The translations under genes were made by a program, and so were the position numbers. The notes under the pieces are model-generated. The model made no database searches. It worked only from the letters and a program-made list of their open reading frames with translations, and had not been told where the DNA came from. From positions 252,121-316,120 of the forward strand of contig JAUZSP010000006.1 of NCBI GenBank assembly GCA_030949385.1: 64,000 nt of DNA. The letters run 5' to 3'. This document shows positions 18,099-43,836 of this stretch, piece by piece. This DNA is from Gammaproteobacteria bacterium (lineage in GTDB: Bacteria; Pseudomonadota; Gammaproteobacteria; JAUZRS01). Numbering within the stretch: position 1 is the stretch's first letter; every line of letters starts with the position of its first letter.

Positions 18099-19186
18099 AT
18101 GCCATTAAGTGACAGACAGACCCTTTTAGTGACGGGAGGAGCCGGTTTTATCGGCGCTAACTTTGTGTTGGAGTACCTTGCACTGACAGAGAACAGTCGA
18201 GTTATCAACCTGGATAAACTGACTTATGCGGGTAATTTAAGCAGCTTGGCGGCTTATTCTTCAGATCCTCGGCATATTTTCATTAAAGGTGATATCGGAG
18301 ATCGCCAGTTGTTGGCCAAGCTACTGGAAGAATATCAGCCGAGTGCGGTGATTAACTTTGCCGCAGAGAGCCATGTGGATCGTTCGATTCATGCACCTGA
18401 GGCCTTTGTGCAGACCAATGTGATGGGCACTTTTAACCTATTGGAATCGGTGCGGGTCTATTGGCAGGCGTTGGGTGAGACAGAGGCGGCTGAATTTCGT
18501 TTTTTACATGTCTCTACTGATGAGGTCTATGGCTCCCTAGATATGCAGGAGCCTGCGTTCACAGAACGGCACCCTTATGCTCCTAACAGCCCCTATTCGG
18601 CTTCTAAAGCGGCCTCGGATCATATGGTGCGTGCGTATCATCACACCTATGGTTTGCCGGTCTTGACCACCAATTGCTCGAATAATTACGGTCCGTTGCA
18701 GTTTCCAGAAAAATTGATTCCACTGATTATTCATAACGCTTTGGCAGGTAAATCAATTCCTATTTACGGTGATGGTCAAAATATTCGAGATTGGCTCTAT
18801 GTAAGTGACCATTGTGCTGCCATTCGAGCGGTGTTGGAAAAGGGGCGCTTGGGTGAGGTGTACAACATTGGGGGGATTATGAAAAAAGCAATTTGGATAT
18901 TGTGCATACGGTGTGTGATATTTTAGATGAATTGCTGCCCGAGTCATCACACAGACCACATAAAAGCCTGATTAAATTTGTCAGTGATCGCCCTGGTCAC
19001 GATCGTCGTTACGCCATTGATCCAACCAAAATTGCTACTGAAATTCAGTGGCAGCCTAAAGAGACCTTTGAGTCGGGTATTCGAAAAACCGTGACTTGGT
19101 ACCTTGAAAATCAGAGTTGGGTGGAGCAAATTGTCTCCGGTGAATACCAAAATTGGTTGGCGGAAAATTACGGAGAGCGAGGGTGA
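18099..19186 (+). pseudogene. rfbB: dTDP-glucose 4,6-dehydratase, frameshifted at a G6 tract
   Basis: Second step of dTDP-rhamnose synthesis. Residues 1-257 are intact RfbB: TGGAGFIGANF, INFAAESHVDRSIH, STDEVYGSL, YSASKAASD. After VYNIGG (about 18875) the frame goes wrong and stops at 18926. The correct C-terminus is found in another frame from about 18876 (DYEKSNLDIVHTVCDILDEL through [13 protein letters not shown]) to 19186. One extra base in the G run at 18870-18875 would restore IGGDYEKSNLDIV exactly. As given the protein lacks about 100 residues and should be inactive. Error, mutation or slippage switch cannot be told apart here. The repaired stop overlaps rfbA. Confidence 0.88.
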
Positions 19187-20067
19187 GCAGAAAAGGGATT
19201 ATCTTAGCGGGTGGCTCTGGTACGCGGCTGTACCCGATCACGCAGGTGGTCTCTAAACAACTGTTGCCGGTCTATGATAAGCCGATGATCTACTATCCGC
19301 TCTCCACCTTAATGTTGGCGGGCATCCGAGATATTTTGATCATCTCTACTCCTGAAGACATTGGCCGTTTTGAGCGGTTATTGGGCAGTGGCGCGCGCTG
19401 GGGGTTGAACATCTGTTATGAGGTTCAACCCTCTCCTGATGGCTTGGCTCAGGCTTTTCTGATTGGCAAAACATTTATCGGTAATGATCCCTCTGCGCTG
19501 ATTCTGGGTGATAATATTTTTCATGGCCATGATTTTACTGAGCTTCTTGTGCCTGCTTCCGAGCAGCAAGAGCACGGCGCTACGGTGTTTGCCTATCAAG
19601 TCAGTGATCCTGAGCGTTACGGTGTGGTTGAGTTTGATAAGACGGGTAAAGTGTTGAGCTTAGAAGAAAAACCAGAGCAAGCAAAATCCAATTACGCCAT
19701 TACTGGGCTCTATTTTTACGATAATCAAGTGGTGGATATTGCTTCAGAGATTAAACCCTCTGCGAGGGGTGAGCTGGAAATCACCGATGTAAACCGTTGT
19801 TATTTAGCGCAGGGTGAGTTGAATGTCTCTGTGATGGGGCGAGGGTATGCTTGGTTGGATACGGGTACCCACAGTTCATTGCTGGAAGCCTCACAGTTTG
19901 TTGAGGTTTTGGAGCGTCGTCAGGGTCTGAAAGTCTCTTGTCCTGAGGAGATTGCATGGCGTATGGGTTATATTGATGATGAGGCGCTGGAAGCGTTGGC
20001 GGTACCTTTGATGAAAAATGGTTATGGGGCGTATTTGATGAAGATTTTATCTTCTGGTCTTTCGTAG
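19183..20067 (+). CDS. rfbA: Glucose-1-phosphate thymidylyltransferase
   Basis: 294 residues from the GTG at 19183, which overlaps the rfbB stop (GTGA). Makes dTDP-glucose, the first step towards dTDP-rhamnose and dTDP-4-amino sugars. Diagnostic N-terminus [19 protein letters not shown], then [29 protein letters not shown] and [19 protein letters not shown]. Its coupling to rfbB and the distant rfbC/rfbD at 40.7-42.2 kb form a split rml set. Confidence 0.95.
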
Positions 20068-20135: not shown

Positions 20136-21065
20136 GTGAGATTTTCACTGGCGGTACCGACACTTAATGCTGGAGAATTATGGAAAGATTTTCTACAGGC
20201 TTTATCTGAACAAACGTTACAGCCCGATGAAGTTTTAGTGATTGATTCAGGGTCATGTGATGATACTGTTTCTTTAGCAAAGAAAGCTGGGTGTAATGTT
20301 CATGAAATAAAAAGAGATGAGTTTAATCACGGAAGTACCAGACAACTTGCTGTGGAAATGTTATCAAGTAATGATGTGATTGTTTTTATGACTCAAGACG
20401 TCTTACTTAATTCACCGAAATCATTTGCCATATTGATGGATTCTTTTAAGAAAGATGGATCCAAGTCCATAGGTGCGGTTTGTGGTCGGCAGCTTCCACA
20501 TCACAATGCGAACCTAATAGCTGCGCATTCTAGATTGTATAATTACAAAAATAATTCATCTATTTTTACAAAAAATGATATTTCAAAACTTGGCATGAAA
20601 GCAACGTTTATGTCGGATTCCTTTTCTGCATACCGTGTGGAGGTATTACGTAATGTTGGGGGGTTTGAGAAAAATATAATTGTTTGTGAAGATGCTTTAT
20701 TAGCAGGCAAAATGTTGCTGGCAGGGTATAGTACTGTCTATACTGCTGACTCCACAGTGCGCCATTCCCATAATTTTAAATTGATGGAAGAAGCGCAGAG
20801 GTATTTTGACATTGGGGTCGCTCATTCCAGTCAAGAATGGTTTATAGATACGTTTGGAGAGCCTGAAGGCGAAGGTTTCCGATATATGAAATCAGAGTTT
20901 AATTATCTTGTTAAAAAAAATCCTTTTGTTCTTCCTTCGGCGTTTGTTAGAAATTTTTTAAAGTATATTTTTTATCGGATAGGAAGAAGAGAAAAATACT
21001 TTCCAGTTAAAATTAAAAAAATATTGAGTTATCAAAAATATTTTTGGGAAAATAAAAATGTCTAG
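20136..21065 (+). CDS. Family 2 glycosyltransferase (rhamnosyltransferase-like)
   Basis: 309 residues from a GTG. GT-A fold: [36 protein letters not shown] (nucleotide-binding Asp), [12 protein letters not shown] (DxD-like position TQD) and later the acceptor-side ED pair in [15 protein letters not shown]. The pattern resembles dTDP-rhamnose-dependent GT2 enzymes, and rfbA/rfbB lie just upstream, but the donor is inferred. The sequence is clearly more AT-rich than the genes before it, marking the start of a compositional shift. Overlaps cysC by eight bases. Confidence 0.8.
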
Positions 21066-21681
21066 TGAGGGTATGAAGAGCAGTAACACCGTTTGGCATA
21101 GTGCTACTGTCACAAGAGAGAGAAGAGAGGCACAAAGTGGCCATAAAGGTGTAGTTCTATGGTTTACTGGTTTGTCAGGTTCAGGTAAGTCGACGTTAGC
21201 GCATGCGGTAGAGGAAGAACTTTATCAACGAGATTGTCGTACGTTTGTTTTGGATGGCGATAATGTTCGTCATGGATTATGTGGTGATCTAGGATTTGGA
21301 GAGCATGATCGACAGGAAAATATTCGGCGAGTGGGTGAGAGCACTAAATTATTTGTTGAGGCTGGTGTAATCACTTTAACCGCTTTTATTTCCCCTTTTC
21401 AGGAGGATCGAAATCGAGTGCGTAGTATGTTTCCTCATGGTGAATTTTTGGAAATTTTTTGTTCATGCCCTTTAAGTATCTGTGAAGAGCGCGATGTTAA
21501 GGGTTTGTATCAACGTGCTCGCGCTGGTGAAGTTAAGAACTTTACTGGCATTGATTCACCATATGAAGAGCCTGTGAAGCCAGAATTAATTGTTGATACT
21601 GGAAGCTTGCCTTTAAATGAAAGCGTGAATCAGGTTATGGAATTGCTTGTTTCTCGAGGTATGGTAAAGCACACTTTATAG
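21058..21681 (+). CDS. cysC: Adenylylsulfate (APS) kinase
   Basis: 207 residues. Phosphorylates adenosine 5'-phosphosulfate to PAPS, the sulfate donor of sulfotransferases. Walker A is [27 protein letters not shown] and the lid region [18 protein letters not shown] are typical of APS kinase. It overlaps a glycosyltransferase gene and is not beside ATP sulfurylase or cysteine-biosynthesis genes. With two sulfotransferase domains downstream (36.3-40.7 kb) this suggests dedicated PAPS supply for glycan sulfation. The enzyme call is firm; the purpose is inferred. Confidence 0.95.
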
Positions 21682-23178: not shown

Positions 23179-23886
23179 ATGGAGCCGGTTATTTCATTGA
23201 AGAATGTGGCGGTAAGATACAAGCGTAGTGGAGGCCTGTTCAGAAAAAAAAATTATTATGAGGCTCTCAAGTCAATAACGTTGGATATTTACTCTGGTGA
23301 ATCGTTAGGTATTCTTGGTCGTAATGGTGCAGGTAAATCAACTTTATTGCGACTTATTTCTGGGGTGATTCGTCCGGATCGTGGAAGCGTTGTTAATCGT
23401 GGTGTTTCTGTTTCTCTATTGGCTCTACAGGCAGGGTTCGATGCTAATTTAAGTGGAAGGGATAATGCAATTATCGGTGGTATGTTACAAGGATGTTCTC
23501 GGGTAGCCGTTGAAAAAGAGTTGGATAAAATTCATGAGTATTCTGAGTTGGGAGATTTTTTCTTTGAGCCGGTAAGAACATACTCGACGGGCATGCGAAC
23601 TCGGTTGGGGTTTTCTATTAGCACGATTATTAGCCCCGATGTGTTGTTGGTAGATGAAGTACTCAGTGTGGGTGATAAAAATTTTAAAGAGAAGGCAGAA
23701 CGTACGATGGTGGCAAAAATGCAATCTCAACAGACCGTGGTTTTAGTGTCACATTCCCATCATCAGATTGCACGTTTGTGTGATCGTGCTGTGTTGATTG
23801 ATGAAGGGGTGAGTGTGATTTCTGGAAGGCCATGTGATGTTCTTAAAATATACGAAGGTCGATTAAATGTTACGGGTAATAGTTGA
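23179..23886 (+). CDS. wzt: Polysaccharide ABC exporter ATPase (Wzt-type, no carbohydrate-binding domain)
   Basis: 235 residues. Walker A GILGRNGAGKSTLL, signature YSTGMRTRLGFS, Walker B DVLLVDEVLSVGD, switch His in LVSHSHHQ. The segment VSVSLLALQAGFDANLSGRDN is the Q-loop region typical of Wzt/TagH/KpsT enzymes. It partners with the TPR-permease directly upstream. Wzt proteins that recognise a capped O-antigen have an extra C-terminal domain of about 150-200 residues; it is absent here. The gene ends ten bases from the convergent acetyltransferase gene, with no obvious terminator between. Confidence 0.9.
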   Translation: MEPVISLKNVAVRYKRSGGLFRKKNYYEALKSITLDIYSGESLGILGRNGAGKSTLLRLISGVIRPDRGSVVNRGVSVSLLALQAGFDANLSGRDNAIIGGMLQGCSRVAVEKELDKIHEYSELGDFFFEPVRTYSTGMRTRLGFSISTIISPDVLLVDEVLSVGDKNFKEKAERTMVAKMQSQQTVVLVSHSHHQIARLCDRAVLIDEGVSVISGRPCDVLKIYEGRLNVTGNS

Positions 23887-27626: not shown

Positions 27627-28040
27627 CTATGTTTGATTGGTTTTTTTTGAAAAGACAAAGTACTTGGACAAGAGAAAAAGAAGTAAGGCTACTATGACAA
27701 TAGCAAATCCTTGACTGAGTGCAGGATTATAGCCGAGTAAGTCAATCATCGCAATAAGAATTAAAAGATTTGCGGTGTAGCCTACAAAGTGTGAGAAAAA
27801 GTAGCGTGTACCTGATGTTTTTATATTTCCTGTGTGAGAAAAAGTCCATTTCCTGTTAGCCCAGTAGCTGAGAGAGGCTCCCGATATGTATAATATAGTC
27901 ATGATGATTTTAGGATCCATGCCAAAAAAAATCCCTGTTAAGTATAAAATAAAAATGACTGTATTACTTATAATGCCAATCAGCCCATATTTAACTATTT
28001 CATGAGTAGGAGGGAGGTGGTGTTTGAATTTTTTTTTCAT
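27627..28040 (-). CDS. GtrA-family membrane protein
   Basis: 137 residues with four predicted membrane helices. The N-terminus EIVKYGLIGIISNTVIFILY and the motif GASLSYWANRKWTFS, followed by a final helix and KYFVFS, are diagnostic of GtrA (PF04138). GtrA proteins are thought to flip undecaprenyl-phosphate-linked sugars for periplasmic transfer. It pairs with the GtrB-like enzyme at 24.6-25.6 kb and the polytopic protein next to it. Confidence 0.9.
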   Translation of the reverse strand: MKKKFKHHLPPTHEIVKYGLIGIISNTVIFILYLTGIFFGMDPKIIMTILYISGASLSYWANRKWTFSHTGNIKTSGTRYFFSHFVGYTANLLILIAMIDLLGYNPALSQGFAIVIVALLLFLLSKYFVFSKKTNQT

Positions 28041-28078
28041 TATATCTACAAATTTTTTTGTTAGGAGGTGGTTTCATC

Positions 28079-31528: not shown

Positions 31529-32074
31529 TTAGTGAAGTAATTGTTGTATTAAGCTTAAATGGTTTGTAGAACATATATTTGGGAAAAGTGGTGTATTTAA
31601 GCTACCTTTTTTATTATAGAGTAAATTTAAGTTGATTTTGGCTGATAATCCTGCTTGTATGTCACTTTGTTTATTTCCGACTAAGAGTGATTTCGATAAA
31701 TCTACATTATATTCACGTTGAGCTTGAAGAATCATTCCTGGATTTGGTTTACGACAGGTAGCATCTTTACGATATTTACCGATGCCATGAGTCGGGTGAT
31801 AGGGGAAAAAATACACTTTTGTAATATCAACACCCTTTCTGGAAAATGCTTCAAGCATCCAGTTTGTGAGCGCCAAAAAATCTGTTTCAGTATAATAGTC
31901 GCGCCCGCTCCCCGCTTGATTATTATGAAAAATTAGGTACCCAAGTTGATTGGCTTTTTGACACAGTGAAAATATTCCATCAATGAACTCAAAGTCTTCT
32001 TTTTTATAAACATAGGCATGATCAATGTTGATAGCACCATTTCGATCAAGAAAAAGAGCAGCTTGAGAGTTCAC
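31529..32074 (-). CDS. GmhB-like HAD phosphatase with lost catalytic and zinc residues
   Basis: 181 residues, clearly homologous along its length to heptose-1,7-bisphosphate 7-phosphatase: NIDHAYVYKKEDFEFIDG, CRKPNPGMILQAQREYN. But key residues differ. The D-x-D-G motif is FLDRNGA, so the second Asp (general acid/base) is Asn. The V-T-N-Q-S-G block is HNNQAG. The V-G-D-K block is LVGNK, losing the Mg2+-binding Asp. Of the zinc ligands expected in CPHH and CDC, three of four appear replaced (FPYH, ATC). The frame is fully open. It therefore looks like a pseudoenzyme or a gene early in decay, in a pathway that would need its activity. Overlaps hddC by four bases. Confidence 0.82.
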   Translation of the reverse strand: MNSQAALFLDRNGAINIDHAYVYKKEDFEFIDGIFSLCQKANQLGYLIFHNNQAGSGRDYYTETDFLALTNWMLEAFSRKGVDITKVYFFPYHPTHGIGKYRKDATCRKPNPGMILQAQREYNVDLSKSLLVGNKQSDIQAGLSAKINLNLLYNKKGSLNTPLFPNICSTNHLSLIQQLLH

Positions 32075-32763
32075 TCTAAAACCTTTGCTAAAAGTGTTTG
32101 AGCCCTTGAGTAATCTTCAGGTATGCCAATATCAATAAATTGACCTTGAGTTATAAAAACTTGAAAGGGTTGATCTAATACTGCTGGTGTCAAAAATTCA
32201 TTCTCTAGAGAAAATTTTTGTCCTAATGGAAAGTGGTCGAGGATGTGTGTGGGTAACAGGTAGCAGCCTGCATTGATGAGTCCTTTTCCGGATTGACCCT
32301 TTTCTAAGAAGCCAATGACATGATTGTTTTTTATTTTTAGACCGCCGTATCGGGATCTGTCTGCTACTTCGCAAGCCACAATGATGGGCTGTTGTGACTT
32401 TTTCCATAGAGACTCAATCTCTACGGCTTCTAAGTCTAAGTAGGTGTCGCCGTTAAAAATAAAAGCATGGTCATTTTTACAATGTGACAGGGCAGATCGT
32501 ATAGCACCGCCTGTTTCTAAGGGCGTGGTTTCAATTTCATAAATAAGCTCTAGGTCGGCAAAGTGATTACCGAAATGATGGCTGATTTTATCTGCCATAT
32601 GACCCAAGGACAAGACAACTCTTTTAAATCCCTTTGATGCAAGGGTCGTAAGTAAAACTTCCAAAAAAGGATGGCCGTTTATAGGAGCCATAGGCTTTGG
32701 CACATCTTGAACGACTTGTTTTAGGCGTGTACCGAATCCACCGGCTAAAACAATGGCTTCCAT
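32071..32763 (-). CDS. hddC: D-glycero-alpha-D-manno-heptose 1-phosphate guanylyltransferase
   Basis: 230 residues. Nucleotidyltransferase with VLAGGFGTRLKQVVQDVPKP, the FNGDTYLDLE metal site, and the C-terminal FIDIGIPEDYSRAQ. This is the pattern of HddC/GmhD-like GDP-heptose synthetases, and the neighbours hddA, gmhA and gmhB-like make the assignment solid. Product would be GDP-D-glycero-alpha-D-manno-heptose. It abuts gmhA with the start and stop touching. Confidence 0.88.
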   Translation of the reverse strand: MEAIVLAGGFGTRLKQVVQDVPKPMAPINGHPFLEVLLTTLASKGFKRVVLSLGHMADKISHHFGNHFADLELIYEIETTPLETGGAIRSALSHCKNDHAFIFNGDTYLDLEAVEIESLWKKSQQPIIVACEVADRSRYGGLKIKNNHVIGFLEKGQSGKGLINAGCYLLPTHILDHFPLGQKFSLENEFLTPAVLDQPFQVFITQGQFIDIGIPEDYSRAQTLLAKVLE

Positions 32764-33347
32764 TAGGCTTGATCCTTAAAAATACTTTTTTCTATTAAGC
32801 CACACAAGATATGTCCTAAAACTAGATGGCCTTCTTGAATGTTGGGGGTTTGTGCTGAAGGGACAGCTAAAATATGATCGCAGAGTATTTCCATTTTTCC
32901 TTGTTTGTTACCGGTTAATCCAACAGATATTACGCCGTATTTTTTTGTTTCTGCAAAGGCATGCAGAATATTGGCAGATTGGCCTGAGGTTGAATAGCCG
33001 ATGAACACATCTCCTGAGCGGGAGTGAGCTTGTATTTGTCGAGAAAAGAGTTTTTCATAACCATAGTCATTGCCTATGGCGGTAAGGATAGATGAGTCAG
33101 TGGTTAATGCTATGGCTGGTAGACCTGGGCGGTCAAAAGCAAAACGGCTGACAAGTTCACCGGCAATGTGTTGAGCGTCGGCAGCACTGCCTCCGTTGCC
33201 AGCGAGCATGATTTTGCCACCATTGTTTAGACATTCAACACATACATGCACTACAGTTTCGAGGCTCGAAATCAGGGCAGTATCGCTGAGAATTTTGGAT
33301 ATGACGCTCTGCGTTTCGGTTATTTGCTCAATGATGTCACGTTGCAT
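32763..33347 (-). CDS. gmhA: Phosphoheptose isomerase
   Basis: 194 residues from ATG 33347, the usual GmhA length. That ATG overlaps the hddA stop (TAATG) and has GGAAAG five bases before it; in-frame ATGs further upstream are less likely. Converts sedoheptulose 7-phosphate to D-glycero-D-manno-heptose 7-phosphate. The SIS domain has MLAGNGGSAADAQHIAGELV, the signature of GmhA, and FIGYSTSGQSANI and EGHLVLGHILCGLIE. First enzyme of the GDP-heptose branch found here. Confidence 0.93.
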   Translation of the reverse strand: MQRDIIEQITETQSVISKILSDTALISSLETVVHVCVECLNNGGKIMLAGNGGSAADAQHIAGELVSRFAFDRPGLPAIALTTDSSILTAIGNDYGYEKLFSRQIQAHSRSGDVFIGYSTSGQSANILHAFAETKKYGVISVGLTGNKQGKMEILCDHILAVPSAQTPNIQEGHLVLGHILCGLIEKSIFKDQA

Positions 33348-34372
33348 TAGACTTTCCATGCTTGTGTGCCGTGTTTTGTGAAGTGGCAATTACTAACTTG
33401 CCCATCAAAGGCGTTGAGGGAGCGAATAACATCCATGCGTTTGTCTGGTGGGGTAAAAAACATCATAAATCCGCCACCACCGGCTCCGGAGACTTTGCCT
33501 GCTAATGCCCCAGATGCAATGGCCGTTTCGTATATTTCATCAATGTGTGAATTAGAGACGCTTCTGGCTGAACGTTTTTTATTTTCCCATCCTTGTTGCA
33601 TTGATTCAACCATGCCATTGAAATCTCCTCTGAGTAGGCACTCTTTCATGAGAAGTGCTTCTTGTTTTATGCCGTGCATGGCATCAATGGCTTTTTGGTC
33701 GCCTGTACTGACATTGCTGCTTTGTTCGGTAATGATTTTTGCTGATTCTCTGGATACTCCGGTGTAAAAGAGCAACAGTGATGCTTCTAGTTCGCAAATA
33801 ATCCAGTGTTTGATTCGGAGGGGATTAACGATGGTTCTTCCTTTTGTGTAAAACTCCATAAAATTAAAGCCGCCAAAAGTGGCAGAGTATTGATCTTGGT
33901 GGCCGCCGTTTAAGCCGCAATCTTCCCGCTCTATTTTGTAGGCCATACGAGCGATTGTGTAGTCATCAAGAGGAAGGTTCAGCAGTTCGGCAAAGGCTCG
34001 AATCATAACTACGACTAGAGTAGAAGATGAACCAAGCCCTGAGCCAGCAGGCGCGTCACAAAATGTACTTAATTCTAAAGGAATGGTTTTTCCGTTGTTG
34101 TAGGTAGTGATGATTTCGTTATACACGGCTTGGTGAAGGTTCATTTTACCATTAATTTCTAAAGGGGCGGTGAGCAGCCGCACGGTTTCCTCTTGTTGAT
34201 CCGTAGAGATGAATTTTATAACGGGTTCAGTTAGAGGGGTGATTACCGCATAGGCGTAGCGATCTATGGTTGCATTGAGAACATACCCGCCATGTTCATC
34301 GCAATAGGGAGAAACATCAGTTCCCCCTCCTGCTAGACCTAAACGCAACGGTGCCCGTGCTCGGATGATCAT
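33347..34372 (-). CDS. hddA: D-glycero-alpha-D-manno-heptose 7-phosphate kinase
   Basis: 341 residues, GHMP kinase family. Phosphorylates heptose 7-phosphate at C1. N-terminal IIRARAPLRLGLAGGGTDVS is the HddA signature; the ATP-binding motif is PAGSGLGSSSTLVVV; the C-terminal GKVSGAGGGGFMMFF is GHMP motif 3. The alpha-anomer (GDP) branch rather than the ADP branch is indicated by pairing with hddC. Translationally coupled to gmhA. Confidence 0.93.
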   Translation of the reverse strand: MIIRARAPLRLGLAGGGTDVSPYCDEHGGYVLNATIDRYAYAVITPLTEPVIKFISTDQQEETVRLLTAPLEINGKMNLHQAVYNEIITTYNNGKTIPLELSTFCDAPAGSGLGSSSTLVVVMIRAFAELLNLPLDDYTIARMAYKIEREDCGLNGGHQDQYSATFGGFNFMEFYTKGRTIVNPLRIKHWIICELEASLLLFYTGVSRESAKIITEQSSNVSTGDQKAIDAMHGIKQEALLMKECLLRGDFNGMVESMQQGWENKKRSARSVSNSHIDEIYETAIASGALAGKVSGAGGGGFMMFFTPPDKRMDVIRSLNAFDGQVSNCHFTKHGTQAWKV

Positions 34373-34387
34373 ATGATTGTTCCTGAG

Positions 34388-35401
34388 TTACCGAGTTAAA
34401 AAGTCTCGGCCTGATTTCACTTGCTCTCTCCAATATTCAAGGAGGTCTTTCATGGTGGTTTCAAAAGGAATTTCAGGCTCCCAGCCGGTCACCGCTTTAA
34501 ATTTATCCGTATTGGGAACTTGTAAGTCAGCATCAATTGGACGTAGGCGCTCTGGGTCTGTTTCGACTTGAATATTTTTTACGGTCGAGAGGGCGATAAG
34601 GCTGTTTAGCATGTCGGCGATGGAGCAGGTGTAGTTGCCGCCAATATTATAATAGGCTCCTGCGATGGGGTTAATGGTCACCAACATGTGATAGGCCTTC
34701 ACAGCATCACGTACGTCGGCAAAGGTTCTTAAAGAATCTAGGTTACCTGTTTTAACAATAGGGGGGATTAGGCCTGCTTCAATCATGGCAATTTGTTTGG
34801 CAAAGGTGGATTCAGCAAACACATCCCCACGGCGTGGACCGGTATGGGTAAACATTCGGGTCGTCATAACCGTCATATTGTAGGCTTCAGCGTAATAACG
34901 GCCAATTAAGTCGGTTCCAACCTTGGAAATGGCGTAAGGAGACGCAGGGTGAAAGGTGCATTCTTCATCAATGGGGAGCTTTTCTTTTGGAACGCGGCCA
35001 AAGACTTCGGATGATGCACAGACGTGAGTTATGGCATCGACGTCATTTTTTCTCAGGGCTTCCAATACGTTGGCTGTGCCTTGTATATTGGTTTCCAGTG
35101 TATCCAGAGGAGAGTCAAAGCTGGTTTTTGGGTAGCTTTGTGCTGCTAAATGAAAGACATAGTCGGGTTTGGACTGTTTAACAGCTTCATGAATTGAATG
35201 GTAATCCCTTAGGTCTCCATAGAGTAGATGAACGCGCTCACCTCTGTTTATTTTTGGCAGTAAGTTGGCGATATTATCCAGAGGGCTTCTCCAGCGACAT
35301 AAACCGTATATTTCCCAATCTGTTTTTTCCAGTAAGTAGTCGGCTAAGTGAGAGCCAACCATGCCGGTGATGCCGGTGATAAGTACCCGTTTTTGAGTCA
35401 T
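34388..35401 (-). CDS. GDP-heptose/GDP-mannose 4,6-dehydratase-like enzyme (DmhA/WcbK type)
   Basis: 337 residues, extended SDR. The NAD(P) motif is ITGITGMVGSHLADYL; catalytic residues lie in CASSEVFG and SPYAISKVGTD (Y-x-x-x-K). MFTHTGPRRGDVFAESTFA and NLDSLRTFADVRDAVKAY match the GDP-mannose dehydratase class. Sitting beside hddA, gmhA and hddC, it most likely dehydrates GDP-D-manno-heptose, the first step to 6-deoxy-D-manno-heptose known from Yersinia and Burkholderia capsules. A GDP-mannose substrate cannot be ruled out, since manC is also in the locus. Confidence 0.78.
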   Translation of the reverse strand: MTQKRVLITGITGMVGSHLADYLLEKTDWEIYGLCRWRSPLDNIANLLPKINRGERVHLLYGDLRDYHSIHEAVKQSKPDYVFHLAAQSYPKTSFDSPLDTLETNIQGTANVLEALRKNDVDAITHVCASSEVFGRVPKEKLPIDEECTFHPASPYAISKVGTDLIGRYYAEAYNMTVMTTRMFTHTGPRRGDVFAESTFAKQIAMIEAGLIPPIVKTGNLDSLRTFADVRDAVKAYHMLVTINPIAGAYYNIGGNYTCSIADMLNSLIALSTVKNIQVETDPERLRPIDADLQVPNTDKFKAVTGWEPEIPFETTMKDLLEYWREQVKSGRDFLTR

Positions 35402-35414: not shown

Positions 35415-36263
35415 TTAGCCTTTTAGTTCTTTTAAATACGCTGTGTCGACATTATACGGTTTTCTGCCGAGATAGTGTGTGAGTTGTTCTATATTCATAA
35501 ATATATTTACAGGGCGGGCACTGTAAAAGTCTGCGGTTGGTTTGGTTATGTTGTATGTCAGGAGGGGGCTGTATTGCCTAGAGAACGCATCTGCTATATC
35601 AATTCTGGATATTGGAGTGGGTCCCCCTATGTTCAAAGTGTGTAACGTTGTTGGCCATTTTTTTGTGAGATTGATGATGACTTCCAGCAAATCACCGATC
35701 CAGACAGCATTTCTTAATAAAGGATGAAATAAATCAGCTGATCGGTTTTTATCTGCACATTCTGATAAGTAGTGTGTAAATTTATCTTGCTTGGATATGA
35801 CGTAGGACAGTCGTAGAGCTAAGAAATTTTGTGTGTCATGAAAGTGTTCCTCAACATTGGCTTTCATTCTTGCATAATCTCCGACGGGAGTAAGTGCTTG
35901 ACTCTCTTTAGCAGGGGATGTGGTTTCTCCATAGACGGTATCGCTTGAGAAAAAAACTACTTTTGCACCTTGAGATAGACAGTGAGAAATTAGTTTTTTT
36001 GTACCGCTGACATTAACAGCATAAGCAAGCTTAGGTTGTTGTTTGCAGATGTCAGGAGAGGATATGGCTGCCGTTAGCAATACCGTATCACCTGAATGGA
36101 TGAATTTTAAATTATCAGTCTTGAAGTCCGCTAAGTTTAGCTGTCGTTTTCCAGATTCATGACGTGATGTCGTTACCACTGTGTTTGGTGGTAGCTTGGC
36201 AACTAAACAACGCCCTATCATGCCGTTGCCACCAATGAGGATGGTTTTTTTTGAGGTGTTCAT
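35415..36263 (-). CDS. RfbD-like NAD(P)-dependent sugar reductase
   Basis: 282 residues. N-terminal ILIGGNGMIGRCLVAKLPP nucleotide-binding motif, VFFSSDTVYGETTSPAKESQ with the S-S-D-x-V-Y-G of RmlD-type enzymes, DYARMKANVEEHF carrying the Y-x-x-x-K pair, and TLHTLNIGGPTPISRIDIAD. It follows the GDP-hexose/heptose dehydratase by 13 bases, so it is the natural candidate for the 4-keto reduction completing GDP-6-deoxyheptose. The dedicated rfbD at 41.3 kb serves the rhamnose pathway instead. Substrate inferred from context. Confidence 0.7.
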   Translation of the reverse strand: MNTSKKTILIGGNGMIGRCLVAKLPPNTVVTTSRHESGKRQLNLADFKTDNLKFIHSGDTVLLTAAISSPDICKQQPKLAYAVNVSGTKKLISHCLSQGAKVVFFSSDTVYGETTSPAKESQALTPVGDYARMKANVEEHFHDTQNFLALRLSYVISKQDKFTHYLSECADKNRSADLFHPLLRNAVWIGDLLEVIINLTKKWPTTLHTLNIGGPTPISRIDIADAFSRQYSPLLTYNITKPTADFYSARPVNIFMNIEQLTHYLGRKPYNVDTAYLKELKG

Positions 36264-36269: not shown

Positions 36270-39200
36270 TTACCTCAGCTCATCAAGTAAAGAGATCAGT
36301 TTACGTTGTCCTGTACTGATGGAATATTCGTCATGAACAAATGATAGGCCTGCATCAGACAAAGCGTTCCAAAGGGTCTCATTCTTGAGAAGATCTAAGG
36401 TTTTTTGGGCAAATTCTTGGCTTTCATTGGCAACAAGAACATTGATGTTGTCTTTAAGACCCATGCCTTCGGTTGCTATGGATGTGGCTATGACAGGAAC
36501 TCCGTAGCTGAGGCTGGTGCCAACTTTTCCCTTAATGCCAGCGCCATACCGCAAAGGTACAATGGAAAGAAGGGCGGTGTCGAAATAGTTACTGATGTCT
36601 TCGACAAAGCCGACGACATCAATGCCATCGGCTTTGATATTAAGTAACTCGTCCGGTGGATGGCTGCCGATAATGGTCAGCTTAAGACTGGGGCGTTTTT
36701 CTTTTATCAGTGGCCAGATATCTTCAATAAAATATAGAATGGCATCTACGTTGGGGGTATGGCGGAATCCGCCGATAAAAAGGATGTTTTCCCTTTTTTG
36801 AAAAGGGTTTTTTCGGCCAGGGATGTCCAGAATCAGGGGGATGACCTGAATGTTGGCATCTGAAATTTCCTCAACAAGGATCTCTTTTTCTGTGTTGGAT
36901 AAGACAATCGTCGCGTCAGATTGTTGCATAACGCTTAATTCGAGTTTTTTGGTTTCTTTTGCTTTTTTGAGCAGTGAAGCGGAATTTTCGATTTCAGCTT
37001 GTCGCTCTTCTCTTAGATAATGTAAATCCACTGTATTGAAGACGATGCGTGCATTTGGGCAAAGTTCTTTGACAAGTGCGATGTACTGGGACGCATAAGT
37101 GACTCGATAAAGAAAAACAGTATCGAGGTGTTTGCCAAAGCCCTCTAAGTATTCCTTCACATTGCGATAATAGGGGCTATAAATACACTCGACACCAATC
37201 CGTTGCAGGTTGCTGGTGTAGTGATTTAAATGGGCAAAATTATCTGCTGGTATAAAAGTAACTCGATGTCCAGACTTTACCATGCATTGCATAAAATGAT
37301 AGGCGGTTATGGAGCCTGCGTCTTTGTCAGGTTCGGGGGTTGAGGCATCAATCACAAGGATGCGTAAATCACATTGTCTATCACGCTCTAGGTAGGGTTC
37401 GATGCCGTTAGGTCGATGGGATGAAAGCTGAGCCTGCCAACGCTTAAAGAGTTTTTGGCTGTTGGTGATTTGATATGATTTGATTCCGCTCGTGAGATCG
37501 GTTCCAGAGGAGACTCCTTCGTGATGCACGATGACCGATAGAGGTTGGTAAAGAACACTTTTGCCGTTCGATCTGATTTTTAGGGCAAGGTCGGAATCTT
37601 CGCAATAAGCGGGTTTATAGTGGCAATCAAAGCCGTTAAATTCATCAAAGAGTGCTTTAGGAACCATAATGGCTGCCCCTGATATGTAGTCCACTTCTCG
37701 CATGTAGTTGAATTCAGGGCGTTCAGGGTCACCATTTCGGCCATAATTCCAGGCAGAGCCATCGCTCCACATGATGCCACCTGCTTCTTGCAGTGAGCCA
37801 TCCGGATAGATTAATTTCGAGCCAACCAGTCCAGTATTTGGAAAGCTGATAAAAGTAAGCGCCAACTCATCTAACCACCCGGTTGTCACGGTCGTATCAT
37901 TGTTTAGAAAAAAAACGTAATCACCATGAGCTTTGCTTGCGCCATTATTACAGCTTTCGATAAATCCAGAGTTGATATCATTTTTAATGTAGACTGCTTC
38001 TGGAAAGTTGTGTATCTGTTGGGGTGTCTCATCTGTAGAACAATCATCTACTACGATCACTTCGATCTGGCAGAATGAAGGATGGTTGCGGATGGATTGC
38101 AGGCATTTTTCGGTATAACCCCAGTTGTTGTAGACCGGAATGATAATAGAAACGTTTGTTTTTCTTAGTTTTTTTATATGGTCATCGGGAATAGGAGTGT
38201 TTGTTTTTTCTGGTAAGGGTTGCCATGATTGCCAATGCTTAAATTCACTTGTGCGATTAAATAATTTTGGAAGGAATCTAAATACGGTGTTTCTTAGTGC
38301 AAGTTTGTTTGCGGGTTTTAGAGGAGTTTTGTGATACATGCGTCGCCCAAGATTAATTAGGGTGTTGGAGACTGATAAGGTGGCATGTTTACTTTTTTTC
38401 TTTAATGCACGTAGAGGTCTTGTGATCGACCAGGATTTGCTTGTGTGTAATTTTTTAATGACTTGTTCGAGCTTTAAAATATGTTCTTGATGTCTTTTTG
38501 ATGTGTGTTCTAGATGGTCAATGTGCGCCCTTCCATTAAGTGCTTCCAGTTCTCTTTGAGCTAAGAGCTGTGCGTATGTATTAGCCTTATTTTCTATTTT
38601 TTTCATGCTTTTGTTTAAATTCTTAAGTGTTGTTTCTACATCTTGTAGTTGGCTGCTTGTCTGGAGGTGCAGGTTATCTAGTTCTTTGTTTTCTAGAGTT
38701 TTTTGTTTTAGTTCATGGTTTAGCTTGGTTATTTTGTGTTGTAATTCGGCCTCAGTTTCTTTGAGTTTGGAAGCGTGTTTGGCCTCAGTTTCTTTGAGTT
38801 TGGAAGCGTGTTTGGCCTCAGTTTCTTTGAGTTTGGAAGCGTGTTTGGCCTCAGTTTCTTTGAGTTTGGAAGCGTGTTTGGCCTCAGTTTCTTTGAGTTT
38901 GGAAGCGTGTTTGGCCTCAGTTTCTTTAATCTTTGATTTGATCATGATGTTTTCATTTTTCAAGGCGTTATAGTCTTTGCCTTCTTGTACTGTGATTTTA
39001 TCAGGCTTGTCTTTTTTATTTCTTATTTTTGAATAAGATTGTGAGTGCCATAGGGCAGAATAGAGATTGTCTGTAGAGGCGAGTTCTGATTGGATTAAGT
39101 TAAAGTCATCCTCTATTTTATTGGGCAAGCTATTTTCAAGCGCTGCCTTTTGAAATATTTTACATGTTTTGGTGACTAATTGGGATAGTTTTGGATCATG

Positions 39201-39896
39201 GGTAAGGGTGTTGTCGATAGCATGGTGGTGCCTTAGGGTTGGGTCTATGAATTTATTGATTTTGTTAAGGGTATGTGAAGAAAAATTAAGAGTTAAGTCG
39301 GTTAATGTACGTGAGCATCGAGTTATTTCTTTTTCCCAGTTTAAAAGGAGTTGGTCGTACATAAGGAAGATACGAGGATGTGCGCGGCTCCATTCTTCAG
39401 ATTCGAGAACATGTCTTAACCAAAGCAAGTAACTGTGGTTGGCGGATAGTTCATTGCGTTTTTTTAAAGAGTCGGCTACCTCAATGGGTGATCTTCCCAC
39501 TAAAATGTAATTGTGATTCCATTTGAGCCGCTTTAATATTTTTTGCCAAATGGGTAGTAAGCGGCAAAGCCTTGGATCCTTAATAATTGGTTGTTCTATA
39601 TCAGTGTAGTGTTGTTGAGCAAGTTTATAGAGTTGTTCCTCGAAGGGTTTTATGTCGGCTTGATTCCACCAAGTGTTGGGCAAAGGGTTTGGGTCTTGCC
39701 AAGAGGAGCCGAGTTTTTGGAGTAGTTCATCGTGCACAGCAACAATATCTGTGGGCTCCCAAAAACCGGTAGGATTATCCTCGGCAGGTTGCATAAGGTT
39801 TGTGCCAGGATCTGTGCCAAGAAGATTGAATAGTCGTGTGGATACAGAAGTGCCACTACGGTGCATCCCCAGTATGATTAAAATGGTTTTATTCAT
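36270..39896 (-). CDS. Three-domain sulfotransferase/coiled-coil/GT2/GT4 protein
   Basis: 1208 residues. Residues 1 to about 260 are sulfotransferase-like: IILGMHRSGTSVSTRLFN is the PAPS-binding loop and LVGRSPIEVADSLKKR the 3'-phosphate site. About 320-505 is a long coiled coil with five perfect 11-residue repeats KETEAKHASKL (residues about 324-383). About 580-800 is a GT2 domain: VSIIIPVYNNWGYTEKCL, VVDDCSTDETPQ, FFLNNDTTV. About 843-1208 is a GT4 domain: LRILVIDASTPEPDKDAG, FIGGFRHTPNVDAILYFI, RYGAGIKGKVGTSLSYG. GT2-GT4 fusions of this sort are known; the N-terminal sulfotransferase and repeat spacer are unusual. It could polymerise and sulfate the same chain. There is no membrane segment. 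Confidence 0.85.
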   Translation of the reverse strand: MNKTILIILGMHRSGTSVSTRLFNLLGTDPGTNLMQPAEDNPTGFWEPTDIVAVHDELLQKLGSSWQDPNPLPNTWWNQADIKPFEEQLYKLAQQHYTDIEQPIIKDPRLCRLLPIWQKILKRLKWNHNYILVGRSPIEVADSLKKRNELSANHSYLLWLRHVLESEEWSRAHPRIFLMYDQLLLNWEKEITRCSRTLTDLTLNFSSHTLNKINKFIDPTLRHHHAIDNTLTHDPKLSQLVTKTCKIFQKAALENSLPNKIEDDFNLIQSELASTDNLYSALWHSQSYSKIRNKKDKPDKITVQEGKDYNALKNENIMIKSKIKETEAKHASKLKETEAKHASKLKETEAKHASKLKETEAKHASKLKETEAKHASKLKETEAELQHKITKLNHELKQKTLENKELDNLHLQTSSQLQDVETTLKNLNKSMKKIENKANTYAQLLAQRELEALNGRAHIDHLEHTSKRHQEHILKLEQVIKKLHTSKSWSITRPLRALKKKSKHATLSVSNTLINLGRRMYHKTPLKPANKLALRNTVFRFLPKLFNRTSEFKHWQSWQPLPEKTNTPIPDDHIKKLRKTNVSIIIPVYNNWGYTEKCLQSIRNHPSFCQIEVIVVDDCSTDETPQQIHNFPEAVYIKNDINSGFIESCNNGASKAHGDYVFFLNNDTTVTTGWLDELALTFISFPNTGLVGSKLIYPDGSLQEAGGIMWSDGSAWNYGRNGDPERPEFNYMREVDYISGAAIMVPKALFDEFNGFDCHYKPAYCEDSDLALKIRSNGKSVLYQPLSVIVHHEGVSSGTDLTSGIKSYQITNSQKLFKRWQAQLSSHRPNGIEPYLERDRQCDLRILVIDASTPEPDKDAGSITAYHFMQCMVKSGHRVTFIPADNFAHLNHYTSNLQRIGVECIYSPYYRNVKEYLEGFGKHLDTVFLYRVTYASQYIALVKELCPNARIVFNTVDLHYLREERQAEIENSASLLKKAKETKKLELSVMQQSDATIVLSNTEKEILVEEISDANIQVIPLILDIPGRKNPFQKRENILFIGGFRHTPNVDAILYFIEDIWPLIKEKRPSLKLTIIGSHPPDELLNIKADGIDVVGFVEDISNYFDTALLSIVPLRYGAGIKGKVGTSLSYGVPVIATSIATEGMGLKDNINVLVANESQEFAQKTLDLLKNETLWNALSDAGLSFVHDEYSISTGQRKLISLLDELR
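38748..38927 (-). repeat. 33-bp perfect tandem repeat, five copies plus 15 bases
   Basis: Starting at 38748, 38781, 38814, 38847 and 38880 the same 33 bases recur without a mismatch, followed by the first 15 bases of a sixth copy. The unit is eleven codons, so copy-number changes keep the frame and only lengthen or shorten the coiled-coil spacer of the surrounding protein. Perfect identity implies recent expansion or ongoing homogenisation by slippage. Confidence 0.95.
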
Positions 39897-39915: not shown

Positions 39916-40725
39916 TTAGGTGTTAAGAAGAAGCTGACAGCGATTTTTAAACTCTTTAAGTTTTTTTTCAAATTCAGGTATTTCTCTGGTTGAGGTTGAT
40001 AGTTTTTTATCGGCTTTATGGTATAACTGAGAGTCTAGTCGGTTATTACTCAGTAAGGCTGTTTTTGCTTCATTGCTGAGCTTATCAAGAAAGGCATGTG
40101 GTGGACAGGTTGGTTGTTTTGATGTGTTTTGTGGTACGTAGGCTAAATCAAGTTTTGGAAAATTGGTTTTTAGGATGTGCTCAAATACAACCATGCTTTC
40201 ATCAAAGCGTTCTACGGTCCCAGTCAGAACATTATCTAGGTTGAGATGTGATAGAGCAGATTCTACAAAATTGTCATCTATGATTCTTGCAGGATTGTTG
40301 ATGTTGTTTAAATATCTGACATGGTGGTTTTTTATAATAGAAGGTACATCATCACGCATGCGCCAGATTATATAGTCAGAAAAATTTAATTCTTTTGCCA
40401 TTTTAGAACCTAGGGAGCTTATAGGTTGTTTTTCTTCAAATTCAAATACTGATTTTACTCGTCTAATAGGTTCACGAAGCAGGATGAGCCACCAGCTTTT
40501 TGATATTTTGTTTGGAGTAAACGGCATGTGATGGCTTGAAATGACCGTGAAGCTCGGGTTATTTTTAATGTACTCATTAAGGTATCCAGCGCCTTGCTTC
40601 TGCATTAAGGCATCTTCTCTGTGATCACAGAAATTTTCCCCGTAGTTACGTTGTAGAGCCCAGTCTAAAGTGGAGCCTGCATTTTTAAATATATGACAAT
40701 GTAAAATTAAATTTTTCTTGTTCAC
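39916..40725 (-). CDS. Sulfotransferase family protein
   Basis: 269 residues. LILHCHIFKNAGSTLDWAL is the 5'-phosphosulfate loop of the carbohydrate sulfotransferase-2 type (H-x-x-K-x-x-G-S-T), and WLILLREPIRRVKSVFEFEE is the 3'-phosphate-binding region with its R-x-x-x-R-x-x-S pattern. Later VLTGTVERFDES fits the family. Soluble; likely transfers sulfate from PAPS to a glycan made by this locus. The start-to-stop gap to the large sulfotransferase-GT gene is 19 bases, so the two are co-transcribed. Confidence 0.85.
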   Translation of the reverse strand: MNKKNLILHCHIFKNAGSTLDWALQRNYGENFCDHREDALMQKQGAGYLNEYIKNNPSFTVISSHHMPFTPNKISKSWWLILLREPIRRVKSVFEFEEKQPISSLGSKMAKELNFSDYIIWRMRDDVPSIIKNHHVRYLNNINNPARIIDDNFVESALSHLNLDNVLTGTVERFDESMVVFEHILKTNFPKLDLAYVPQNTSKQPTCPPHAFLDKLSNEAKTALLSNNRLDSQLYHKADKKLSTSTREIPEFEKKLKEFKNRCQLLLNT

Positions 40726-40747: not shown

Positions 40748-41305
40748 TTATAGTTTAGGTGTTGTTTTTTGGTGAGAAAGAAAAGGTGTGCTTTTTTGAT
40801 CTTTATTGGAAACTAAAGGAGGTGTTTGGATTGGCCATTGGATATTAATGTGAGGGTCATTCCATTGAATTCCTGCTTCCAGTTCAGGGCTATAATAATC
40901 TGTTGTTTTATACAAAAACTCCGCATTTTCCGAAAGAGTCAAAAAGCCATGAGCAAAGCCCTCTGGAATCCAGAGCTGCTTTTTATTCTCAGCTGAAAGC
41001 ACCTCGCCAACCCATTGGCCAAACGTGGGCGAGCTTTTACGAATGTCCACAGCCACATCAAAAACCTCTCCCTGAGTCACACGTACTAATTTTCCTTGTG
41101 CTTTGGGTGGCAGTTGATAATGCAGCCCTCGCAAGACCCCTTTGCTGGATTTTGAGTGATTGTCTTGCACAAACTGGACGTCAAGCCTCGTGGCATCCCG
41201 AAATACTTTTTGGTTAAAGCTTTCAAAGAAAAACCCGCGCTCATCGCCAAAGACTTGTGGCTCAAATAAGATCACATCAGGGATGCTTAATGGAGTGGTC
41301 TTCAT
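40748..41305 (-). CDS. rfbC: dTDP-4-dehydrorhamnose 3,5-epimerase
   Basis: 185 residues, cupin fold. Third step in dTDP-L-rhamnose synthesis. FEPQVFGDERGFFFESFN, FVQDNHSKSSKGVLRGLHYQ (catalytic His), VDIRKSSPTFGQWVG and IPEGFAHGFLTLSE are hallmark RmlC blocks. Transcribed together with rfbD and away from rfbB/rfbA, 20 kb distant. Confidence 0.95.
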   Translation of the reverse strand: MKTTPLSIPDVILFEPQVFGDERGFFFESFNQKVFRDATRLDVQFVQDNHSKSSKGVLRGLHYQLPPKAQGKLVRVTQGEVFDVAVDIRKSSPTFGQWVGEVLSAENKKQLWIPEGFAHGFLTLSENAEFLYKTTDYYSPELEAGIQWNDPHINIQWPIQTPPLVSNKDQKSTPFLSHQKTTPKL

Positions 41306-41339
41306 GATCGTCTGAGTGTGCGGTGTTGTCGAAGCGAGA

Positions 41340-42245
41340 TCATAAGTTTTCTTTTATTACTAATTCGGTGATTAATCGTTTGACGTGAGTTTGCCAGATA
41401 GGCAGAACAATGCCAAAAGTTTCTGTTAATTTTTGTGAGCTGAGTCGTGAATTTTTTGGGCGTGTTGCAGCTTGTGGATATTCATCGCTCTGAATCGGGC
41501 GTATTTTGTCAGGTGTGGTTGAAAGTGTACAGCCGTGTTTTTCAGCTTGGGTGATGACGTATTGAGCGAACTCAAACCAACTGCTCTCACCGGCTGCACT
41601 CAGATGATAGGTGCCGATGATGTTTTTGTTGCTGCCTTTGTCTTGTTGGAGGTGATAGAGACAGAGTGCGGTGATGTCGGCAATCAGCTCGGCGCTGGTG
41701 GGTGCGCCGTATTGATCTTTGATTACCCTGAGTTCGTCGTGCTGTTTGGCCAGTTTCAACATGGTTTTAGCAAAATTATTGCCGCGAGCTGCAAAGACCC
41801 AGCAGGTGCGAAAAATCAGGTGTTGGCAGCCACTTTTTCGTATGGCTTCTTCACCTAATAGCTTGCTTTTTCCATAAACGGATTGGGGGTTGGCTTGGTC
41901 GGTTTCGTTGTAAGTGCCTTCTTTTTCACCATCAAAAACATAGTCAGTGGAGTAGTGGATTAGCCAAGCGTTGAGGTGTTTGGCTTCTTTTGCTAATAGG
42001 GCAACGGCGGTGTGGTTGATTTTTTCAGCCTGCTCTGCTTCGCTCTCTGCTTTATCAACAGCGGTGTAAGCGGCCGCATTGACAATTACATCGGGTTGGT
42101 AATCTCGCAAGGTGGTTCTTAGCTTGTCAAGGTTTGCCAAATTCACATCGGAGCGGTTGCAGATCTTCAGCTCTCCCAAAGGGGCGAGGGAGCGTTGCAG
42201 TTCCCAGCCCACTTGACCGTTTGCGCCGAGCAGTAACATTTTCAT
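41340..42245 (-). CDS. rfbD: dTDP-4-dehydrorhamnose reductase
   Basis: 301 residues from ATG 42245 (MKMLLLGANGQVGWELQ); the frame is open 12 codons further upstream but that part is unlike RmlD. Reduces the 4-keto group to give dTDP-L-rhamnose. STDYVFDGEKEGTYNE, NPQSVYGKSKLLGEE (Y-x-x-x-K) and GAPTSAELIAD are diagnostic. The 190-base region upstream to 42435 separates it from the divergent initiating transferase and must hold both promoters; no strong -35/-10 pair was obvious. Confidence 0.94.
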   Translation of the reverse strand: MKMLLLGANGQVGWELQRSLAPLGELKICNRSDVNLANLDKLRTTLRDYQPDVIVNAAAYTAVDKAESEAEQAEKINHTAVALLAKEAKHLNAWLIHYSTDYVFDGEKEGTYNETDQANPQSVYGKSKLLGEEAIRKSGCQHLIFRTCWVFAARGNNFAKTMLKLAKQHDELRVIKDQYGAPTSAELIADITALCLYHLQQDKGSNKNIIGTYHLSAAGESSWFEFAQYVITQAEKHGCTLSTTPDKIRPIQSDEYPQAATRPKNSRLSSQKLTETFGIVLPIWQTHVKRLITELVIKENL

Positions 42246-42435
42246 TGGTTTTGTTGTTCCACGGAGGCCTTTAACGACCATTAATCGGTGTTTTTTTTAG
42301 CGCAGTATACACATTTTATGCCTGTGACTCCAAAGCGGCCAACTTGGTTAGTCTTTTTTGCGGGATTTTACTGGCTGGCTTTTGGTTGCCGAGTGAGATA
42401 TAAGAGCGTGCATTGATAGGCAGAGGGGTGAAAAT

Positions 42436-43836
42436 GTGCTTAAACGAGGCGTAATACAAGAACATGCCGCATTGCTGGCTTTTTTAATGCGTGTGCTGGA
42501 TCTGACGGCGTTGTTGCTGGCTTTTTTTGCCGCGTATTGGCTCTATTTTTCCACCTTTGAGTTGCAGCCGATCTATTTTTACCCGCTGGTTTTGGGTGCT
42601 GGATTGGCGCTGCTGCTCTTTCCGCTTTTTTCGGTCTACGGCAGTTTGCGTGGTGCGCCGTTTTGGTTGGAGCTACGCAGTCTAAGCTTTGCTCTGCTGG
42701 CGCTGTTTGTCCTGTTGGCGGTGGTGGGGGTGTTGAGTAAAAGCAATCCGCTTTACTCGCGCATCTGGTTTGGTTCTTGGTTTTTGCTCTCGTGGGCTTT
42801 TTTTCTCCTTTATCGTGGTGCGCTGCGCTTGCTGTTGGGCTGGATGCGTCGCCAAGGGTATAACCAGCGTTGTCTGATTGTGCTCGGTTGTGGTCCGGGG
42901 GCTGAAGAGGTGGTGCAGCGCATCAATAAAACGCCTTGGTCTGGGTTTCAGGTGGTGGCGGCTTTTGGTGATCTAGAGCAAGGTGAGCTGAACGGGGTGC
43001 CGATTGCCGGTGGTTATGAGGATGTGGTGGGCTACCTCTCTTCGAATCATGTGGATCAAGTTTGGATTGCGCTGCCTCTGAGCGAAGCCGCAGAGCTGAA
43101 ACGGGTGCTGCATCTGCTACGCCACTCCACGGTGGACATCCGTTATGTGCCGGATCTGTTCGGTTTTAAGCTGCTGAATCAATCCATTTCCGAAGTGGCG
43201 GGGATGCCGGTGTTGGATCTGTCAAAATCCCCCATGAGCGGCATGAATCAGTTTGTGAAAGCAGTGGAAGATCGTCTCTTGGGTTTGCTGATTTTTATTT
43301 TGATCACGCCCTTTCTGCTGTTGATTGCATTAGGGGTGAAGCTCACCTCATCAGGTCCGGTGCTGTTTAAACAGAAACGCCACGGCTGGGATGGGCGTGA
43401 AATTCGGGTCTATAAATTTCGCTCTATGGTGGTGCATCAAGAGGGGGCGGGCGTTGTGACCCAAGCGAAAAAAGGCGATGCGCGCATCACCCCCTTTGGG
43501 GCGTTTTTGCGTCGCACCAGTCTGGATGAGTTGCCGCAGTTTTTTAATGTCTTGCAGGGGCGCATGTCGATTGTCGGACCACGGCCTCATGCCTTGGCGC
43601 ACAACGAAGAGTTCAAGGATAAAATCGAGCAGTACATGCTGCGCCACAAGGTGAAACCAGGCATCACCGGTTGGGCGCAGGTGAACGGCTATCGCGGTGA
43701 AACCGATACCCTCTACAAGATGCAAAAACGGGTGGAATACGATCTGAATTACATTGAAAATTGGTCGTTGTGGCTGGATCTGAAAATTATATTTTTGACC
43801 ATTTTCAAGGGGTTTGTCAATAAAAATGCCTATTGA
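42436..43836 (+). CDS. Undecaprenyl-phosphate sugar phosphotransferase (WcaJ-type)
   Basis: 466 residues from a GTG preceded by GAGGGG. Initiates glycan assembly by moving a sugar 1-phosphate, usually glucose 1-phosphate, onto undecaprenyl phosphate. Four N-terminal helices (about 10-125), a CoA-binding-like Rossmann domain with LIVLGCGPGAEEVVQRI, then one helix (about 275-300) and the catalytic domain: SSGPVLFKQKRHGWDGREI, VYKFRSMVVHQEG, RRTSLDELPQFFNVLQGRMS, GPRPHALAHNE, KPGITGWAQVNGYRG. Together with Wzx this supports a Wzx-dependent route. The sugar specificity is not shown by sequence. Confidence 0.92.
   Translation: MLKRGVIQEHAALLAFLMRVLDLTALLLAFFAAYWLYFSTFELQPIYFYPLVLGAGLALLLFPLFSVYGSLRGAPFWLELRSLSFALLALFVLLAVVGVLSKSNPLYSRIWFGSWFLLSWAFFLLYRGALRLLLGWMRRQGYNQRCLIVLGCGPGAEEVVQRINKTPWSGFQVVAAFGDLEQGELNGVPIAGGYEDVVGYLSSNHVDQVWIALPLSEAAELKRVLHLLRHSTVDIRYVPDLFGFKLLNQSISEVAGMPVLDLSKSPMSGMNQFVKAVEDRLLGLLIFILITPFLLLIALGVKLTSSGPVLFKQKRHGWDGREIRVYKFRSMVVHQEGAGVVTQAKKGDARITPFGAFLRRTSLDELPQFFNVLQGRMSIVGPRPHALAHNEEFKDKIEQYMLRHKVKPGITGWAQVNGYRGETDTLYKMQKRVEYDLNYIENWSLWLDLKIIFLTIFKGFVNKNAY

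Follow-up and report, generated by a model that had tools for sequence, protein, structure and literature searches.

A stretch of 64,000 nucleotides from a Gammaproteobacteria bacterium (assembly GCA_030949385.1, contig JAUZSP010000006.1), referred to here as the window, carries on its minus strand at positions 36270-39896 one uninterrupted and complete open reading frame (ORF) of 1208 codons. It encodes a sulfotransferase, a coiled coil, a basic linker and two glycosyltransferase (GT) modules, GT2 and GT4, in a single chain. The arrangement that we looked for, a modifying domain and two GT modules with a coiled coil between them in one chain, is therefore present. A sequence-only reading had described the same 1208-residue frame and domains, leaving the strand unsaid, and this description is borne out by Pfam matches, motifs, predicted fold and exact repeats. 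We think it rather probable that the protein works like known terminator-coiled coil-polymerase proteins, with sulfate as the cap and the coiled coil as a ruler. The gene and its parts are as follows.

36270..39896, minus strand: whole gene, 1208 aa, sulfotransferase - coiled coil - basic linker - GT2 - GT4
39132..39896, minus strand: 3'-phosphoadenosine 5'-phosphosulfate (PAPS) sulfotransferase domain, residues 1-255; predicted local distance difference test (pLDDT) of the model 86, 50/50 structural matches sulfotransferases
39846..39869, minus strand: 5'-phosphosulfate loop GMHRSGTS, residues 10-17, near-invariant in 12 aligned members
39468..39494, minus strand: 3'-phosphate motif R135-x-P137 ... 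S143; R135, P137, V140 and S143 invariant in the 12 aligned
38442..38999, minus strand: coiled coil, about residues 300-485, proposed ruler (proline-free 306-480, helix 442-485, repeat array)
38748..38927, minus strand: 33-bp tandem repeat, 5.5 exact copies, encoding the 11-residue unit LKETEAKHASK
38217..38441, minus strand: basic amphipathic helical linker, residues 486-560, net charge +16, starting with SKSWSITRPLR; proposed membrane contact
37407..38171, minus strand: GT2 (GT-A) domain, residues 576-830, with DDCS 617-620, NNDT 665-668 and EDSD 766-769
36273..37370, minus strand: GT4 (GT-B) domain, residues 843-1208, by Pfam match and predicted structure

The N-Terminal Sulfotransferase

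The motifs, conserved residues and predicted fold of the N-terminal domain identify it as a PAPS sulfotransferase, with its activity predicted. In an alignment of the window protein with 11 homologues (n = 12), K106-D107-P108-R109 is invariant or nearly so in addition to the two PAPS-binding motifs, the second of which lies within RSPIEVADSL at residues 135-144 of the window protein. The hidden Markov model search proposed by the sequence-only reading succeeded for GT2 and GT4, however, the window protein scores 12.4 bits against Pfam Sulfotransfer_3, below the gathering cut-off of 27 bits. Homologues do exceed it, namely the N-domain of L107 (28.4 bits) and two more distant sulfotransferase-coiled-coil proteins (33.0 and 29.1 bits). 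The best PDB sequence matches of the N-domain profile are also sulfotransferases (E about 1e-3). When the AlphaFold2 model of the domain (pLDDT 86, predicted template modeling score 0.86) was compared with known structures, Foldseek placed sulfotransferases at the top with kinases behind at weaker scores, and VIA-align gave sulfotransferases in all 50 rows listed (Z 15.8 to 9.7), the best being tyrosylprotein sulfotransferase 1 (5wri_A, Z 15.8, root-mean-square deviation 3.8, 212 residues aligned). Profile matches, Foldseek ranking and VIA-align rows together rule out an unrelated P-loop kinase, which had been named beforehand as a refuting outcome. Identity to the sulfotransferase domains of same-architecture relatives is 26-35%, and the family turned up in 41 of 398 genomes of the phylum.

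The Coiled Coil, the Basic Linker, and the GT Half

Residues 306-480 contain zero prolines, and the predicted structure has a long helix at the C-terminal end of the coiled coil (residues 442-485). The 33-bp array (5.5 copies, 100% matches) falls within the proline-free stretch, so the repeat-built coiled coil of the earlier reading holds. Hydrophobic periodicity, with peaks at 3.5 and 3.7 and its highest value at 2.8, was not used as proof. In a survey of 70 family proteins, tandem repeats were found in the linker of 20 vs. elsewhere in 10, in three times as much sequence, and the repeats outside the linker are mostly short two-copy matches. The long linker arrays have periods of 21, 33, 54, 63, 84, or 105 bp (7n, 11 or 18 residues), so the rod grows by repeat duplication in units that keep the coiled-coil phase. 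Across relatives, sulfotransferase and GT2 lie between 217 and 696 residues apart. For a comparison of repeat copy number, the other genome of the genus (n = 1) lacks the gene. As a separate observation, a Pseudodesulfovibrio profundus plasmid encodes a protein (L037:5798-9427) with a methyltransferase-like N-part, coiled coil, GT2 and GT4, whose coiled coil holds nine nearly exact 54-bp repeats.

Both GT modules are well over their cut-offs, GT2 with PF00535 (residues 583-708, E 4e-27) and GT4 with PF13692 (residues 1036-1172, E 7e-22), and their catalytic-type motifs are kept in 29 aligned members. The model of residues 441-1208 (pLDDT 88.7) consists of a long helix, short helices, a GT-A domain and a GT-B domain. 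GT2 and GT4 together would form the polymerase, and the basic helices at residues 486-560, between the coiled coil and the GTs, are a candidate for membrane contact.

Recurrence and Module Swapping

Relatives of the GT2-GT4 part were sought by scanning ~85,000 species-level genomes and retaining the best 80 loci, such that all counts are lower bounds. Counting genomes with the same domain order, a check that the sequence-only reading had proposed, gave 11 further species-level genomes within the best 80 matches, belonging to the Gamma-, Alphaproteobacteria, and Verrucomicrobia. This recurrence rules out a chance fusion or an assembly error. When the 80 loci are clustered by N-terminal module, 11 proteins including that of the window carry the sulfotransferase, with one more truncated (L113), five are of methyltransferase type, 29 have another large module, and the rest form smaller groups. 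The sulfotransferase is found in Thiomargarita, Thiocapsa, Lysobacteraceae/Rhodanobacteraceae, Xanthobacteraceae, Hyphomonadaceae, and Verrucomicrobiota.

A tree of the GT2-GT4 part of 29 proteins requires no fewer than seven changes of the sulfotransferase label on well-supported branches, and a single origin is seen in none of the 200 bootstrap trees. Judged from this tree, the sulfotransferase is a module gained or lost at least seven times, and one ancient fusion is rejected. Close pairs probably account for the Mantel correlation between sulfotransferase and GT distances (r 0.73), which was given no weight. The clearest swap involves L042, with a sulfotransferase, and L053, with a methyltransferase, which are sisters on the tree and share 67% identity across the 1111 aligned columns that run from the coiled coil to the C-terminal end, but are unrelated upstream of the coiled coil. 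The sulfotransferase was N-terminal in 15 of 20 large ORFs examined, and its coiled-coil tip also partners other GT modules or occurs without any, as in the WbdD-like proteins P0006, L141, L151, and L162 (sulfotransferase-coiled coil-SWRxTxPLR). Sulfotransferase tips were also seen fused to RgpF plus a HAD hydrolase domain (L166, L168) and to WbsX (L169, L171, L174). No relative was found in the viral contigs searched.

Sulfate, Export, and Sugar Genes of the Locus

The neighborhood of the fusion gene includes the following genes.

39916..40725, minus strand: second, separate sulfotransferase (Sulfotransfer_2), directly upstream of the big gene
21058..21681, plus strand: APS kinase (CysC), which makes PAPS; TIGR00455, 269.5 bits
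21692..23176, plus strand: Wzm-like permease of an ABC-2 exporter, with a TPR part at its N-terminus
23179..23886, plus strand: ABC exporter ATPase (Wzt-like), 235 aa, consisting of the ABC domain alone and lacking the C-terminal cap-binding domain
31529..35401, minus strand: GDP-heptose supply, with HAD phosphatase (gmhB-like), hddC-, gmhA-, hddA-like and GDP-mannose-dehydratase-like genes
35415..36263, minus strand: RmlD-like reductase, possibly for 6-deoxyheptose
40748..42281, minus strand: rmlC and rmlD (dTDP-rhamnose)
18099..20067, plus strand: rmlB- and rmlA-like genes
14079-15371: Wzx-like flippase
28079-29497: multi-transmembrane protein, 472 aa, without family match
42436-43836: sugar-phosphate transferase

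The ABC exporter (21692-23886) shares its locus with the fusion gene, the APS kinase, Wzm-like and Wzt-like genes lying 12-15 kb from it; Wzt genes are near the fusion gene in the window and on the same contig in L058, L068, L093, and L107. In L107, a homologue of the second sulfotransferase directly follows the big gene. The genome encodes an ATP sulfurylase (Sat) and two APS kinases and has zero matches to PF01507 (PAPS reductase CysH, also CysD), an absence that is likely but not certain in a genome 98% complete. There is thus no evident assimilatory use of PAPS, which appears to be made for sulfation alone. No APS kinase was found in the flanks examined around other fusion members; one scores over the cut-off somewhere in 10 of their 11 genomes. 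An hddA-like gene directly follows the fusion gene in L051, L058, L068, and L072, with gmhA and hddC after it in the last three. GDP-heptose genes co-occur with 4/11 sulfotransferase loci vs. 7/69 others (p 0.04), a weak association in which kinship is ignored.

The TPR region of the Wzm-like permease (21692-23176, plus strand) spans ~200 residues, and the matching permease ORFs in L053, L131, and L133, at about 265-300 aa, are too short for it. This region is possibly a substitute docking module where Wzt has no cap-reading domain. Elsewhere in the window, pseudaminic acid genes (pseB, C, F, G, a GNAT, and I; 6475-11985, plus strand) are followed by a capsule-synthesis-like gene and the Wzx-like flippase. 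A GtrA-like protein adjoins the 472-aa multi-transmembrane protein (27627-29497, minus strand), perhaps as a periplasmic side-chain glycosylation pair. An M4 thermolysin-like peptidase with a C-terminal ASH/HYDIN-type Ig domain is encoded at 1065-4409 (plus strand).

Comparison With Known Systems

In characterized ABC-dependent systems the terminator and the polymerizing GTs are at opposite ends of the coiled coil, which acts as the ruler, with one-chain versions represented by WbbB (Klebsiella pneumoniae O12) and ORF6 (K. pneumoniae O7) (PMC11231755). The window protein resembles WbbB (K. pneumoniae O12 / Raoultella terrigena) and O7 ORF6 in having an N-terminal chain-modifying domain, a coiled coil and two C-terminal GTs, and in being encoded in an ABC-transporter locus (PMC11231755). 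Unlike the window sulfotransferase, however, their terminators are a Kdo (3-deoxy-D-manno-oct-2-ulosonic acid) transferase (GT99) or a methyltransferase-kinase, and O7 ORF6 has two GT2 modules rather than GT2 and GT4, the likeness being one of domain layout. WbdD (Escherichia coli O9a / K. pneumoniae O3) combines a terminator, a coiled-coil ruler and a membrane-proximal amphipathic region, a plan that the GT-less sulfotransferase-coiled-coil relatives resemble, but it is a kinase-methyltransferase and its polymerase, WbdA, is a separate protein. In the prototype WbdD system Wzt reads the cap, and it has a cap-reading domain that the window Wzt lacks. WsaE, a methyltransferase-GT-GT protein with a methyl cap, likewise joins an N-terminal modifying domain to two GTs, alongside an ABC exporter and rhamnose genes (PMC2943079). 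It differs in its methyltransferase cap, its two rhamnosyltransferases and its product, the S-layer glycan of the Gram-positive Geobacillus. In Vibrio sp. KMM 8419, the cluster for a sulfated capsule shares with the window cysC and sulfotransferases, an ABC-exporter locus and rhamnose genes (PMC11641403), but its sulfotransferases are described as separate genes and sulfation is proposed on the repeat-unit rhamnose.

The sequence-only reading had allowed that the fusion might already be well described. The format has indeed been described, whereas a search of the open-access literature, with the 2019 termination census lying outside it, yielded no sulfotransferase terminator. The abstract of this census of termination chemistries, by Mann et al., reportedly announces new predicted chemistries, and the census may already predict sulfotransferase terminators. 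As far as the open-access literature shows, the terminator-coiled coil-polymerase format is known, and its variant with a sulfotransferase, the repeated independent assembly of that variant and the ruler of exact repeats are seemingly new.

A Sulfate Cap and a Coiled-Coil Ruler?

We read the window protein as a sulfate-capping machine because its format matches that of WbbB, O7 ORF6 and WsaE with a sulfotransferase at the tip. The basic helical linker would hold GT2 and GT4 near the inner membrane, where they would extend a lipid-linked chain, probably of rhamnose and (6-deoxy-)manno-heptose. Once this chain is long enough to reach the sulfotransferase at the distal tip of the coiled coil, its non-reducing end would be sulfated, growth would halt and the finished product would exit via the ABC exporter, with the copy number of the coiled-coil repeat setting chain length. 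Capping with length control is likelier than general chain sulfation because the N-terminal tip is the terminator slot and sulfotransferases and methyltransferases are naturally swapped there. The earlier proposal, that the protein polymerizes and sulfates in one complex with a variable spacer, therefore stands in part: it fits the domains, the APS kinase of the locus and the repeat-driven linker length, but general sulfation is less likely than capping.

Several observations weigh against capping. That sulfation stops growth is something we infer, and the data do not separate a terminal cap from in-chain sulfation. The window Wzt lacks Wzt_C (PF14524), a domain present in 6 of 7 Wzt genes near relatives and also in Wzt at the L058 and L068 loci, which leaves cap-coupled export unsupported at this locus. 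Since the cap-reading Wzt domain was tested for and is absent, we do not class the locus as a prototype capping system. The adjoining second sulfotransferase means that in-chain sulfation may also occur, and the Wzx-like flippase and the multi-transmembrane protein are compatible with a Wzx/Wzy route.

The strongest alternative is that the protein is an in-chain modifier that places sulfate on a sugar of every repeat, with the coiled coil providing reach or oligomerization and with no cap or length control. A known sulfated capsule, whose cluster has cysC and sulfotransferases, has its sulfate proposed on a repeat-unit sugar (PMC11641403), and the lack of a cap-reading domain in the window Wzt is shared by the Wzt near the same-order relatives L093 and L107. 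However, the slot that the sulfotransferase occupies is shared with methyltransferases, which act as terminators in related architectures, the locus has another, separate sulfotransferase available for in-chain work, and repeat expansion varies linker length as would fit a ruler. We regard in-chain modification as possible but on the unlikely side. It is improbable that the protein builds and sulfates an oligosaccharide repeat unit which is then flipped and polymerized outside the cytoplasm; besides the Wzx-like and multi-transmembrane proteins, such a Wzx/Wzy pathway could draw on the sugar-phosphate transferase, but the ABC exporter genes adjoin the APS kinase and are also near the fusion gene in four relatives, the Wzx-like gene lies beside the pseudaminic acid genes, toward the opposite end of the window, and no Wzy was identified. 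A dead sulfotransferase fold retained as a docking tip, to which the low identity to relatives and the Sulfotransfer_3 score could point, is highly improbable given the intact, near-invariant PAPS-binding motifs, the APS kinase in the locus and the absence of any assimilatory use of PAPS found in the genome.

Implications

The broader proposal, that bacterial ABC-dependent glycans can be truly terminated by a sulfate cap and that the exact 33-bp repeats of the ruler let a strain alter the length of its surface glycan by gaining or losing repeat units, is a tentative one, and we consider it unlikely as a whole. If the sulfotransferase is a terminator, sulfate would join methyl, methylphosphate, and Kdo as chain-ending groups, and the number of coiled-coil repeats would predict surface polysaccharide length from DNA sequence. 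Because sulfotransferase and methyltransferase are naturally exchanged on polymerases that are almost alike, such pairs would serve to probe how cap chemistry, ruler and polymerase combine and, if the proposal is true, would open a way to make sulfated glycans of defined length.

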